From assembly GCF_013377085.1 (NCBI RefSeq), contig NZ_JACAAX010000010.1, positions 62,001 to 126,000 on the forward strand: DNA of 64,000 bases, in the 5' to 3' direction. The position numbers and the translations under genes are program-made. The stretch comes from Rhodoplanes sp. (GTDB lineage: Bacteria > Pseudomonadota > Alphaproteobacteria > Rhizobiales > Xanthobacteraceae). Under the pieces are notes generated by a model, which was not told the DNA's origin, searched no databases, and saw only the letters and a list, made by a program, of their open reading frames with translations. Shown here in pieces: positions 5,642-49,636 of the stretch; positions within the stretch are counted from its first letter, which is position 1, and each line of letters opens with the position of its first letter.

Positions 5642-5787
5642 CGGGGGTTCCCTGTCGGTGGCGTCTTCGGAACGAAGCGCCGCATGAAAACGTGTCGGCG
5701 CCGGATGGCCCGGCCGGAGCGCATTCGGTAGGCCGCGGCTTGCCGTTTTCAAGGACGAATGCGACAGTCCGTCAAGGTTCTTGGGCT

Positions 5788-5800
5788 GTTGCAGCGCAAC
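5788..5800. promoter_or_regulatory. Operator-like inverted repeat between divergent aminotransferase and oxidase genes
   Basis: GTTGC-AGC-GCAAC, a perfect 5-bp inverted repeat, extended on both sides by an imperfect CTG/CAG pair. It lies in the 224-bp gap between the two divergent start codons (5641 and 5866), 65 bp before the oxidase ATG. The symmetry fits a dimeric repressor or activator site, but no regulator gene is nearby, so the role is unproven. Confidence 0.3.
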
Positions 5801-5865
5801 CAGAACACGCCGCAACACGGCCTCGCGCCGCCTGCCTGACCCTCCAGCCCGCCGAAGAGTGCCGC

Positions 5866-8800
5866 ATGCCCCGTCCCAACGCGTCCGGCCTGGAGCGCCG
5901 CCTCGCCGCCGAGAACCTGGGCGACGTCGCCTTCGACCGCTTCACCCGCGGCCGCTACGCCACCGATGCCTCGCACTATCAGAAATTCCCGGTCGGCGTG
6001 GTGGCGCCGCGCACCGCCGAGGACGCGGCCAAGGCCATCGCGATCGCGCGTGAAAACGGCGTCAGCGTGCTGGCGCGCGGCGGCGGCACCTCGCAGGCCG
6101 GCCAGACGGTCGGGGACTCGCTGGTCGTCGACTGCTCGAAGCATCTCACCCGGATCATCGATCTCGACGTCGCCGGATCCCGCTGCGTGGTCGAGCCCGG
6201 CCTGGTGCTCGACGAGCTGAACCGCAAGCTGAAGCCGCACGGCCTGTGGTTTCCGGTCGATGTCTCCACCGCGTCGCGGGCCACCATCGGCGGCATGACG
6301 GCCAACAATTCGTGTGGTGGCCGGTCGCTGCGCTACGGCAATACGCGAGAGAACGTGCTGGCGATCGACGCGCTGCTGGCCGACGGGACGCCGGCGCGGT
6401 TCGGCCGTGTCGCCGCGGACTTGTCCGATCTCCCGAAAACATCGCCGGTACGGCCGCTGGCCCAGGACCTGCTCGCGCTGGCCGCACGAGAGGCCGGCGA
6501 GATCGCGGCGCGGTTTCCGAAGGTGCAGCGGCGGGTCGGCGGCTATGACATCGATGCGCTGGTGCCGGGCACCAACGACCTCAACCTCGCTCATATTCTG
6601 GTCGGCTCCGAGGGCACGCTCGCCTTCTCGACCGCGATCGAGCTGAAGCTGTCGCCGCTGCTCGGCCGGCGCGTCGTCGGCGCCTGCCATTTCGGCGACT
6701 TTCGCGGCGCCATGGACGCGGCGCAGCACATCGTCCGGCTGATGCCGATGGCGGTCGAGCTGGTCGACGCCACCATGATCGGGCTCGCCCGTGACATCGC
6801 GATGTTTCGCCCGACCCTCGAGGCGGTGGTGCGCGGCACGCCTGCCGCCATCCTGCTGGTCGAGTTCGCAGAAGCGGAGCACGACGAGAATTTGTTCCGC
6901 CTCGCCCGCCTGCACGAGCTGATCGGCGACCTCGGCTTCGCCTGGGACAAGCCGGGGAAGACTTTCGGCGGCGTGGTCGACATCACCGACGCCGGGCTGC
7001 AGGCGGCCGTCACCGAGCTGCGCACCGCCGGGCTCAACATCATGATGTCGATGAAGGACGCGGGAAAGCCCGTCTCCTTCGTCGAGGACTGCGCCGTGCC
7101 GCTGGAGCACCTCGCCGACTACACGTCGCGACTGACCGAGGTGTTCCACAGGCACGGCACCACCGGCACCTGGTACGCGCATGCGTCGGTCGGCTGCCTG
7201 CATGTGCGGCCCGTGCTGAACCTGCGGCTGGAACAGGACCGCAAGGCGATGCGGGCGATCGCCGAGGAGGCCTTCGCGGTCGTGCGCGAGTACAAGGGCT
7301 CGCATTCGGGCGAGCACGGCGACGGCCTGGTGCGCTCGGAGTTTCACGAGGCGATGTTCGGCACGCGCCTGGTGCGCGCCTTCGAGACCGTGAAGGACCG
7401 CTTCGACCCGCAGGGCCTTTTCAATCCCGGCAAGATCGTGCGCGCTCGAAAATTCGACGACCGCGCCTGGTTCCGGTTCGGCGAGGGATACGGCGCGGCG
7501 CCGATGACGACGGCACTCGACTGGTCGGCGTATCCCGGCGCCGGCAGCGGTTTTCAGGGCGCCGTCGAGATGTGCAACAACAACGGCGCCTGCCGGTCGC
7601 TCGCCGGCGGCGTCATGTGCCCGAGCTTTCGCGCGACGCGGGACGAAAGAGACTCCACGAGAGGTCGCGCCAACACGTTGCGACTCGCCATCACGGGCCA
7701 GCTCGGGCCGGGTGCGCTGACATCCGATCAGATGATGGAGACGCTGACGCTGTGCGTCTCCTGCAAGGCGTGCCGGCGCGAATGCCCGACCGGCGTCGAC
7801 ATGGCCCGCATGAAGATCGAGGTTTTGCACGCTTGGACGCAGACGCACGGGCTGTCGCTGCAGGACCGCGTCACGGGCTGGCTGCCGCGGTACGCCCCCT
7901 ATGCGGCGCGCGTGCCGTGGCTGATGAATCTTCGCGATCGCATTCCGGGGCTGGCGGCATTGTCTGAGAGTTTGCTCGGCTTCTCGGCACGGCGCCCGCT
8001 GCCGCGGTGGCGGAGTGATTATTTCAGGGACGACGAGGGCACCGTCTTTTCACCCTCCCCTGGAGGGGGAGGGTCGACGCGCGAAGCGCGGCGGGGTGGG
8101 GTGAAACCACACGCGCCGGCTTCGCCGTTCACCCCACCCCGGACGCGAGCTGCGCTCGCGCCCGACCCTCCCCCTCCAGGGGAGGGTGAAGGAAGACACG
8201 TCGTCCTGTTCGCCGACACGCTCAATCGCTGGTTCGAGCCCGACAATCTCCGGGCTGCTCGGACTGTGCTCGCCGCCGCGGGCTTTCGCGTCCATGTCGC
8301 GCGACCCGTCGACGGCGGACGCCCGCTGTGCTGCGGCCGCACGTTTCTCTCTGTCGGCCGCGTCGAGGAGGCGCGCCGCGAGGCGGAGCGCACGCTCGCC
8401 GCGCTCGCGCCCTATGTCGCGCGAAAAATCCCGGTGGTCGGGCTGGAGCCGAGCTGCCTCTTGACCTTCCGCGACGAGATTCCGGCTCTGGTGAACACCG
8501 ATACCGCCCGCGCGGTGGCGCAGCAGGCGCTGCTGTTCGAGGAGTTTCTGGTCCGCGAGGCGGAGCGCGGCACGCTGGCGCTGCCACTGGCGCCGATCGC
8601 CGGCCGCGCATTTCTGCACGGGCATTGTCATCAGAAATCATTCGGCGCGATGGGCGACGTCGCCCGCGTGCTGCGGCTGATCCCGGATTTGTCGGTCGAG
8701 ACGATCGAGTCGAGCTGCTGCGGCATGGCGGGCGGCTTCGGCTTTGCGGCCGAGACCATCGACGTGTCGCTCGCCATGGGCGAGCTGTCGCTGCTGCCGG

Positions 8801-8961
8801 CCGTGCGCGGCGCGCCCGACGACGCCCTGATCGTCGCCGACGGTGCCTCCTGCCGGCATCAGATTTCTGACGGCGCCGGGCGAAAAGCGCTTCACGTCGC
8901 CCGCGTGCTGGCGGCGAGCGTGAAGGCGGCACGCGAAACCCGCGCTGATCGGGCGACGTGA
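5866..8961 (+). CDS. FAD-linked oxidase fused to Fe-S and CCG domains (D-2-hydroxyacid dehydrogenase type)
   Basis: A 1031-residue fusion. The ATG at 5866 (MPRPNASGLERRLAAENLG) fits the family N-terminus. Order: a VAO-type FAD-binding domain (VLARGGGTSQAGQTVG, then MTANNSCGGRSLRYGNTREN), the FAD-oxidase C-terminal domain with SGEHGDGLVRSEFH, a segment with EMCNNNGACR, a ferredoxin-like CVSCKACRRECPTGVDM (near residue 630), and cysteine-rich CCG motifs (LCCGRTF near 820, HCHQKSF near 918, SCCGMAGGFG near 948). Relatives (YdiJ, GlcD+GlcF fusions) oxidise D-2-hydroxyacids and pass electrons to quinone. Residues about 729-775 come from a 138-bp palindromic element inserted in frame between the Fe-S and CCG parts. 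The gene ends next to the convergent lipoprotein gene, with no gap. Confidence 0.9.
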   Translation: MPRPNASGLERRLAAENLGDVAFDRFTRGRYATDASHYQKFPVGVVAPRTAEDAAKAIAIARENGVSVLARGGGTSQAGQTVGDSLVVDCSKHLTRIIDLDVAGSRCVVEPGLVLDELNRKLKPHGLWFPVDVSTASRATIGGMTANNSCGGRSLRYGNTRENVLAIDALLADGTPARFGRVAADLSDLPKTSPVRPLAQDLLALAAREAGEIAARFPKVQRRVGGYDIDALVPGTNDLNLAHILVGSEGTLAFSTAIELKLSPLLGRRVVGACHFGDFRGAMDAAQHIVRLMPMAVELVDATMIGLARDIAMFRPTLEAVVRGTPAAILLVEFAEAEHDENLFRLARLHELIGDLGFAWDKPGKTFGGVVDITDAGLQAAVTELRTAGLNIMMSMKDAGKPVSFVEDCAVPLEHLADYTSRLTEVFHRHGTTGTWYAHASVGCLHVRPVLNLRLEQDRKAMRAIAEEAFAVVREYKGSHSGEHGDGLVRSEFHEAMFGTRLVRAFETVKDRFDPQGLFNPGKIVRARKFDDRAWFRFGEGYGAAPMTTALDWSAYPGAGSGFQGAVEMCNNNGACRSLAGGVMCPSFRATRDERDSTRGRANTLRLAITGQLGPGALTSDQMMETLTLCVSCKACRRECPTGVDMARMKIEVLHAWTQTHGLSLQDRVTGWLPRYAPYAARVPWLMNLRDRIPGLAALSESLLGFSARRPLPRWRSDYFRDDEGTVFSPSPGGGGSTREARRGGVKPHAPASPFTPPRTRAALAPDPPPPGEGEGRHVVLFADTLNRWFEPDNLRAARTVLAAAGFRVHVARPVDGGRPLCCGRTFLSVGRVEEARREAERTLAALAPYVARKIPVVGLEPSCLLTFRDEIPALVNTDTARAVAQQALLFEEFLVREAERGTLALPLAPIAGRAFLHGHCHQKSFGAMGDVARVLRLIPDLSVETIESSCCGMAGGFGFAAETIDVSLAMGELSLLPAVRGAPDDALIVADGASCRHQISDGAGRKALHVARVLAASVKAARETRADRAT
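8051..8188. repeat. Palindromic repeat element inside the oxidase gene, family C
   Basis: The ends are an exact 26-bp inverted repeat (8051-8076 against 8163-8188; outer end CACCCTCCCCTGGAGGGGGA). A second inner pair, GGGGTGGGGTGAA / TTCACCCCACCCC, lies inside it, and two small hairpins (GCGCGAAGCGCG; GCGAGCTGCGCTCGCG) sit between. The element spans 138 bp, exactly 46 codons, and the reading frame stays open through it, giving a Pro/Gly/Arg-rich peptide with no match to the flanking domains. Confidence 0.93.
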
Positions 8962-19500: not shown

Positions 19501-19593
19501 CGTCATACGCGGGCTCGACCCGCGTATCCATCTCTGGAAAGCAGCTCAGTTTCAGCAGCTTGATGGATGGCCGGGTCAAGCCCGGCCATGACG
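19501..19593. repeat. Dispersed palindromic repeat, family A, copy 2
   Basis: 93 bp with the same plan as copy 1: outer CGTCAT/ATGACG ends, left hairpin CGGGCTCGACCCG, an A/T-richer middle and right hairpin CCGGGTCAAGCCCGG. It lies between the divergent antiporter and mtgA genes, so it is within their promoter region, unlike copies 1 and 3. Confidence 0.88.
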
Positions 19594-31849: not shown

Positions 31850-33142
31850 ATGAGCGCCACCCTGACGACCAGCATCAAGGCTCCGGATCTCGCCGCCCAG
31901 ATGGGCGACATCGGCCGGCGGGCCCGCGCGGCCGCGCGCGTCATCGCCCGGTCCGCCGCCACCGACAAGACCGAGGCGCTCGGCGCGATGGCCGAGTCGG
32001 TGCGCGCAGCCGCCCACGACATTCTCGCCGCCAATGCCGAGGACGTGACCGAGGCGCGCAGCCGCGGCGCCACCGCCGCGCTGATCGACCGGCTGCGGCT
32101 CGACGACAAGCGCATCGGCGCCATGGCGGACGGCATCGCCGTGGTCGCCGGCCTGCAAGATCCGGTCGGCGTCGCGATCGACGCCTGGACGCGGCCGAAC
32201 GGCATGCGGATCGAGCGCGTGCGGGTGCCGCTCGGCGTCATCGGCGTGATCTACGAGAGCCGGCCGAACGTCACGGCCGACGCCGGCGCGCTGTGCCTGA
32301 AGGCCGGCAATGCCGTGATCCTTCGCGGCGGCTCCGACGGCTTCCGCTCTTCGCGCGCCATCCACAGGGCGCTGGTCGAGGGGCTGCACGCCGCCGACCT
32401 GCCCGAGGATGCGATCCAGCTCGTCCCCACCCGCGACCGCGCGGCCGTCGGCATGATGCTGGCGGGCCTCGACGGCAATCTCGACGTGCTGGTGCCACGC
32501 GGCGGCAAGGAGCTGGTCGCCCGCGTCCAGGCCGAGGCGCGGGTGCCGGTGTTCGCCCATCTCGACGGCAACTGCCATGTCTATGTCGACGCGGCGGCCG
32601 ACCTCGCGATGGCCAAGAGCATCGTCCTCAATGCCAAGATGCGGCGCACCGGCGTCTGCGGCGCCGCCGAGACCCTGCTGGTCGACCGCGCCGCGGCGCC
32701 GACCCATCTGGCGCCTCTCGTCGGCATGCTGCTCGACGCCGGCTGCGCCGTGCGGGGCGACGCCGCCGCCCGCGCGGTCGATCCGCGCGTGACCGCGGCC
32801 GTCGAGGAAGACTGGTTCACCGAGTATCTCGACGCCGTCATCGCCGTGAAGGTGGTGGACGGCGTCGCCGACGCCATCCACCACATCGAGCACTACGGCT
32901 CGCACCACACCGACGCGATTGTCACCAACGACGGCGCCGCGGCCGAAAAATTCCTCGCCGAGGTCGACTCCGCCATCGTCCTGCACAATGCCTCGACCCA
33001 GTTCGCCGACGGCGGCGAGTTCGGGTTCGGGGCGGAAATCGGCATCGCCACCGGCCGGCTGCACGCCCGCGGCCCGGTCGGCGTCGAGCAGCTCACCACA
33101 TTCAAGTACCGCATCCGCGGCTCGGGACAGACCCGTCCATAG
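31850..33142 (+). CDS. proA: Gamma-glutamyl phosphate reductase
   Basis: A 430-residue aldehyde-dehydrogenase-fold enzyme: second step of proline synthesis, reducing gamma-glutamyl phosphate to glutamate semialdehyde with NADPH. Motifs: [45 protein letters not shown] and the active-site Cys in [17 protein letters not shown] 31850 is preferred to 31841 because AAGGG then lies about ten bases upstream. The usual partners obg and proB are not upstream here; downstream nadD follows after 61 bp. Confidence 0.95.
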
Positions 33143-39299: not shown

Positions 39300-39393
39300 C
39301 GTCATTGCCGGGCTCGACCCGGCAATCCATCAAGCTGCGGAAAATGCTCTTCTTTCGAAGGGATGGATCGCCGGGTCGAGCCCGGCGATGACG
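39300..39393. repeat. Dispersed palindromic repeat, family A, copy 3
   Basis: 94 bp with outer CGTCAT/ATGACG, left hairpin GCCGGGCTCGACCCGGC, an A/T-richer centre sharing AATCCATCAAG and CTCTT with copy 1, and right hairpin CCGGGTCGAGCCCGG. It separates the deacetylase gene from the third Bug gene. Confidence 0.9.
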
Positions 39394-49549: not shown

Positions 49550-49636
49550 CGTCATGCCCGGCCCCGTGCCGGGCATCCACGCTCGTCATCAGCCCCGCCG
49601 AGGACGTGGACGGCCGGGACAGGCCCGGCCATGACG
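49550..49636. repeat. Dispersed palindromic repeat, family A, copy 4 (divergent)
   Basis: 87 bp, outer CGTCAT/ATGACG preserved, left hairpin GCCCGGCCCCGTGCCGGGC and right hairpin GGCCGGGACAGGCCCGGCC. The centre (ACGCTCGTCATCAG...) is shorter and unlike copies 1-3. It lies in the 148-bp gap between atpA and atpG, so it is transcribed in the atp mRNA. Confidence 0.75.

Follow-up and report, generated by a model that had tools for sequence, protein, structure and literature searches.

A palindromic repeat in frame within the Fer4-CCG linker of a YdiJ-like dehydrogenase gene of Rhodoplanes sp.

RPEs (Ogata 2000, 2002) are protein-coding palindromes of about 150 bp that lie in frame in unrelated genes and are predicted to be tolerated by the protein fold, and nearly half of those first reported from R. 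conorii are intragenic, as summarised in a later source (PMC10969869). Dimers of GTAG and CGTC REPs have likewise been found inside ORFs, many of them in DNA repair genes (uvrA, uvrB, DNA ligase), and different REPs occur near one recB site in two Xanthomonas species (Di Nocera 2013; PMC3733652). The repeat described here lies in a 64,000-nucleotide stretch of Rhodoplanes sp. DNA (the window). It resembles RPEs in that it sits in frame in protein genes, three of them in the host genome, and a reading of the window made from its letters and open reading frames (the sequence-only reading) had rightly taken it as RPE-like in kind but in another host, a dispersed palindromic repeat in frame between Fer4 and CCG domains. 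It differs from RPEs in that the hosts are free-living Alphaproteobacteria with large GC-rich genomes, in that about 5% of the copies are intragenic as against nearly half of the first R. conorii RPEs, and in that, across many genera, unrelated repeats have entered one linker again and again.

The comparison with REPs is similarly mixed. Inserts that we call type I, found in the same linker of related bacteria, resemble the CGTC dimers of Di Nocera, whereas the window element lacks both the GTAG and the CGTC tag (in the aligned copies its terminal hairpins start with TTCACCC and finish with GGGTCG), measures 142 bp and has four hairpins, and a single site has here been re-used in some ten genera or more. 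With MITEs (ERIC, RUP, NEMIS and others) the repeat shares a short, non-coding, dispersed character and terminal inverted repeats, here perfect 28-nt arms, but it has nested covarying hairpins, and neither a target duplication nor a parent IS was found. So extensive a convergent re-use of a single linker appears to be new within the searchable open-access literature.

The element and its host gene

The ORF of the host gene (5692-8961, with the ATG at 5866 as the likely start) stays open through the repeat. Its product scores 495 bits on the NCBIfam model for D-2-hydroxyglutarate dehydrogenase YdiJ (NF049975), below the cut-off of 1350; it is a YdiJ relative that, so far under the model cut-off, is not assigned as YdiJ. 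Foldseek matched its FAD half to D-lactate and D-2-hydroxyglutarate dehydrogenases. The Fe-S and FAD motif residues, including the cofactor-binding cysteines, are invariant in a 44-sequence orthologue alignment, identity to intact orthologues is 54-75%, and the codon score is high on either side of the insert. The gene is absent from the five congeners searched, and hence there is no same-genus empty site for it.

Conservation across 61 aligned copies, which start with TTCACCC and end with GGTGAA(G), sets the element at 142 bp rather than the 138 bp first proposed; the element itself is real, and the shorter length was a choice of limits. The exact terminal inverted repeat and the inner pair of the sequence-only reading are both present, with terminal arms of 28 nt instead of 26 and an inner pair of 14 nt, each 100% complementary, and the window holds two arm matches against 0.00 expected from shuffles. 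A length divisible by three, on which that reading had relied, reflects the chosen limits, and the genome copies fall in all three length residue classes. The frame is open, as had been claimed, but the 46 residues said to be added to the linker become about 45 when measured against the usual orthologue linker, while the 142-bp element codes a 47-residue segment (example peptide within it, GGVKPHAPASPFTPPR). Orthologue comparison confirmed intact family sequence either side of the insert, between Fer4 and CCG.

The window element is rich in GC, and two of its six frames contain no stop. The frame in use is the more hydrophilic of the two (GRAVY -1.06 vs -0.71) and reads as a hydrophilic Pro/Gly/Ser stretch. 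In an AlphaFold2 model of the dehydrogenase (mean pLDDT 85), residues 729-775 are mostly below 50 and the neighbouring domain blocks reach 94-97, which supports a disordered loop between folded domains.

Table 1. Positions of the element, its parts, the host gene and related copies. Plain coordinates refer to the window; those with L or G handles refer to other loci of the host genome.
Feature	Position	Strand	Remarks
YdiJ-like FAD/Fe-S dehydrogenase gene	5866..8961	+	1031 aa from ATG 5866; domains FAD_binding_4, FAD-oxidase_C, Fer4, CCG
Palindromic repeat element, 142 bp	8049..8190	+	codes residues 729-775 (SPSPGGGGSTREARRGGVKPHAPASPFTPPRTRAALAPDPPPPGEGE); from conservation limits over 61 copies, inverted repeat and frame
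Left terminal arm	8049..8076	+	itself a hairpin, CCCTCCCC-TGGA-GGGGGAGGG; inverted-repeat search
Left inner hairpin	8078..8090	.	CGCGC-GAA-GCGCG; from sequence, covaries between copies
Inner inverted pair, left member	8092..8105	+	CGGGGTGGGGTGAA; inverted-repeat search
Inner inverted pair, right member	8128..8141	-	TTCACCCCACCCCG; inverted-repeat search
Right inner hairpin	8144..8160	.	CGCGAGC-TGC-GCTCGCG; from sequence, covaries between copies
Right terminal arm	8163..8190	-	exact reverse complement of left arm; inverted-repeat search
CGTC-REP-like inverted dimers	about 1690-1767, 19505-19585, 39308-39385, 49550-49628		all intergenic
Copy in cisplatin damage response ATP-dependent DNA ligase gene	L016 1501-1632 (G000:C12:93346-93477)		in frame
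Partial copy in UvrB C-terminal tail	L091 1573-1709 (G000:C42, about 32673-32808)		in frame

The repeat family in the host genome

There are about 60 occurrences of the arm motif CCCTCCCCTGGAGGGGGAGGG in the genome and none in a reversed-pattern control, so that the proposal of a dispersed repeat stands. A search of the whole genome gave 40 scored elements, and the copy in the window shared 85% identity with the best of the rest. The copies are dispersed, mostly intergenic and often arranged as inverted dimers, in the manner of REPs, and the element was found in 32 of 90 relatives. A typical copy runs from an outer hairpin through a variable inner hairpin to GGGGTGGGGTGA, paired with CACCCC(C/A)(T/A)CCC, and on through a second variable inner hairpin to the closing outer hairpin. 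The inner stems exist in some 24 sequence variants on the left and 18 on the right, yet they are perfect over at least 6 bp in 84-85% of copies, compared with 12-17% after exchange of halves among copies; because the stems vary while their pairing is kept, it is the hairpin structure that persists and not the sequence.

Two variants of the terminal hairpins were seen. At loci L001 and L002 the two arms are exactly complementary, while most other copies have a distinct right arm (GACCTCCCCCCTCCAGGGGGAGGTGAA), which suggests either arm conversion or a subfamily. At L074, L076, L077, L081 and L092 the right terminal hairpin holds an extra hairpin in its loop (e.g. GGCGCGGCTTCGCCGCGC).

Several searches for the origin of the repeat were negative. 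The flanks of the copies are weakly conserved and showed no excess of matches over shuffled pairs that would indicate a target-site duplication, an absence that is not proof. The sole Y1_Tnp (RAYT-like) gene of the genome scores 69.5 bits on NF047646, under the cut-off of 80, and no arm motif lies within its 3.3-kb locus. An Rfam search with the repeat gave no credible match, the motif was not found in searchable open-access text, and a literature search with the raw sequence returned unrelated papers only.

When 59 copies were sorted with a codon-usage score, just three (about 5%) were intragenic, although the genome is mostly coding. These in-frame copies lie in the dehydrogenase, in the DNA ligase (TIGR04120, 799.9 bits, cut-off 400) and in the UvrB tail, and share one reading frame (PSPGGGGS...). 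The ligase site is empty in the congener G004, and the UvrB tail matches uninterrupted in four congeners (G001-G004). Two of the three genes serve DNA repair.

Recurrent insertion at two sites in related bacteria

Across 118 sampled orthologues the dehydrogenase linker, bounded by ..LPxW and xVVLFADTFNR, usually has 14-19 residues, and in one genus (g34) often about 23. Recognisable palindromic inserts occupy it in 20 of the 118, ten being CGTC-REP-like dimers or parts thereof (SWPGLSRPS..DVDARHKAGHD) and ten CCCTCCCC-type hairpins, and twelve further inserts are ambiguous or possibly decayed; the classification is partly by eye, and the sample is skewed to better-scoring hits. For each insert type ten genomes were tested, and in every one of them the type was dispersed. 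When 122 full-length proteins were aligned, internal inserts longer than 25 residues fell nowhere but in the Fer4-CCG linker, N-terminal length differences being set aside as start-site variation, and a wider sample reaching outside the family has short linkers at this site. The sequence-only reading depended on the segment not being common to orthologues from unrelated genera; other genera indeed lack it, and where their linker is filled, the palindromes are different ones.

On a tree from which the linker was left out, its filled or empty state changed at least 15 times, or 17 times with three states, although the tree is quick, leaves many forks unresolved and does not separate gains from losses, and some sister pairs may share one insertion event. 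Given that it has been invaded repeatedly by different repeats in related bacteria, the linker is a hotspot of insertion, at which spreading DNA would be turned into protein. A gene-fusion boundary was considered as the cause and rejected, as the linker falls inside the Fe-S half (Fer4/CCG) and not at the FAD/Fe-S joint.

The copy in the DNA ligase led us to search relatives with the ligase flanks, and many of the matches split at one point. The loop there, with a base length of 10-13 residues, has at least 20 in 25 of the 70 loci read and reaches 109 in other genera. Twelve inserts passed a strict G/C-hairpin pattern, several more look alike by eye, and none among the ligase-loop inserts is of the CGTC type. 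This loop is a second insertion hotspot, used in many genera. Element type therefore differs by site, the ten CGTC-type and ten hairpin-type inserts of the dehydrogenase linker facing 19 from the ligase, identified with the pattern and by eye (nominal Fisher p 0.0004, which is merely indicative, since the compared sequences share ancestry and were not sampled at random), and plain tolerance does not explain such a difference.

Origin of the insert and competing explanations

We consider it very probable that a non-autonomous palindromic repeat spread through the genome and inserted in frame in a flexible linker, and that in-frame copies survive in a few permissive loops. A double-hairpin, REP/MITE-like repeat of this kind would spread by some transposition or copying process, presumably driven by an enzyme, and would have entered the Fer4-CCG linker in frame. 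Most intragenic insertions would be purged, and disordered linkers such as the dehydrogenase linker, the ligase loop and the UvrB tail would tolerate them, the first two having been entered repeatedly by different repeats in many genera. Because the GC-rich repeat is stop-free in two frames, one of them hydrophilic and rich in Pro/Gly/Ser, the loop could grow with the fold intact. At the level of sequence, the multi-copy repeat, the lack of the insertion in most orthologues, the open frame and the conserved flanks are all established. Against this explanation stand the lack of a linked transposase, the lack of a detected target duplication, and the difference in element type between sites.

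That difference also bears on whether the copying machinery itself makes the hotspots, by preferring sites for their secondary structure or their replication or transcription context, with no selection of survivors. The re-use of two loops across many genera would fit such targeting, as would the partition of types; however, the weakly conserved flanks, the missing target duplication, and the variation of insert types and frames within each hotspot make it unlikely. Retention for a function we judge quite unlikely: a very stable mRNA hairpin might slow ribosomes where the domains meet, or the enzyme might benefit from a longer linker rich in Pro/Gly. The linker with its insert is predicted to fold at -130.6 kcal/mol (z about -8.6), and type I inserts used the most (or near-equal most) hydrophilic open frame in the two examples tested, but most orthologues have no insert, and both the sequence and the length of the inserts vary freely, some inserts looking decayed.

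A broken, decaying gene disrupted by the insert, to which the lack of the gene in other species of the genus might point, is very improbable in view of the open frame, the intact cofactor residues, the identity to intact orthologues noted above and the high codon score on both sides. An assembly artefact is scarcely credible: the genome is in 89 contigs, but the site lies inside one of 148 kb, similar inserts are seen in genomes assembled completely into one contig (e.g. G074), and the copy is unique, its mere 85% identity to the nearest other copy making a repeat collapse unlikely.

The dehydrogenase linker offers a natural series of many states, from empty linkers through those that unrelated repeats have filled to possibly decayed ones, that makes the passage from selfish repeat to protein, and whether a role is gained, directly testable by comparison and simple deletion. 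It is possible, though not likely, that the loops are more than permissive; CGTC elements make up about half of the YdiJ-linker inserts and none of those in the ligase loop, which could reflect targeting or selection on hairpin or linker composition, and palindromic repeats would then repeatedly supply adaptive linkers between domains. In one dehydrogenase linker (L031, genome G088), a CGTC-type insert seemingly has two further unrelated hairpins inside it, a nested insertion.
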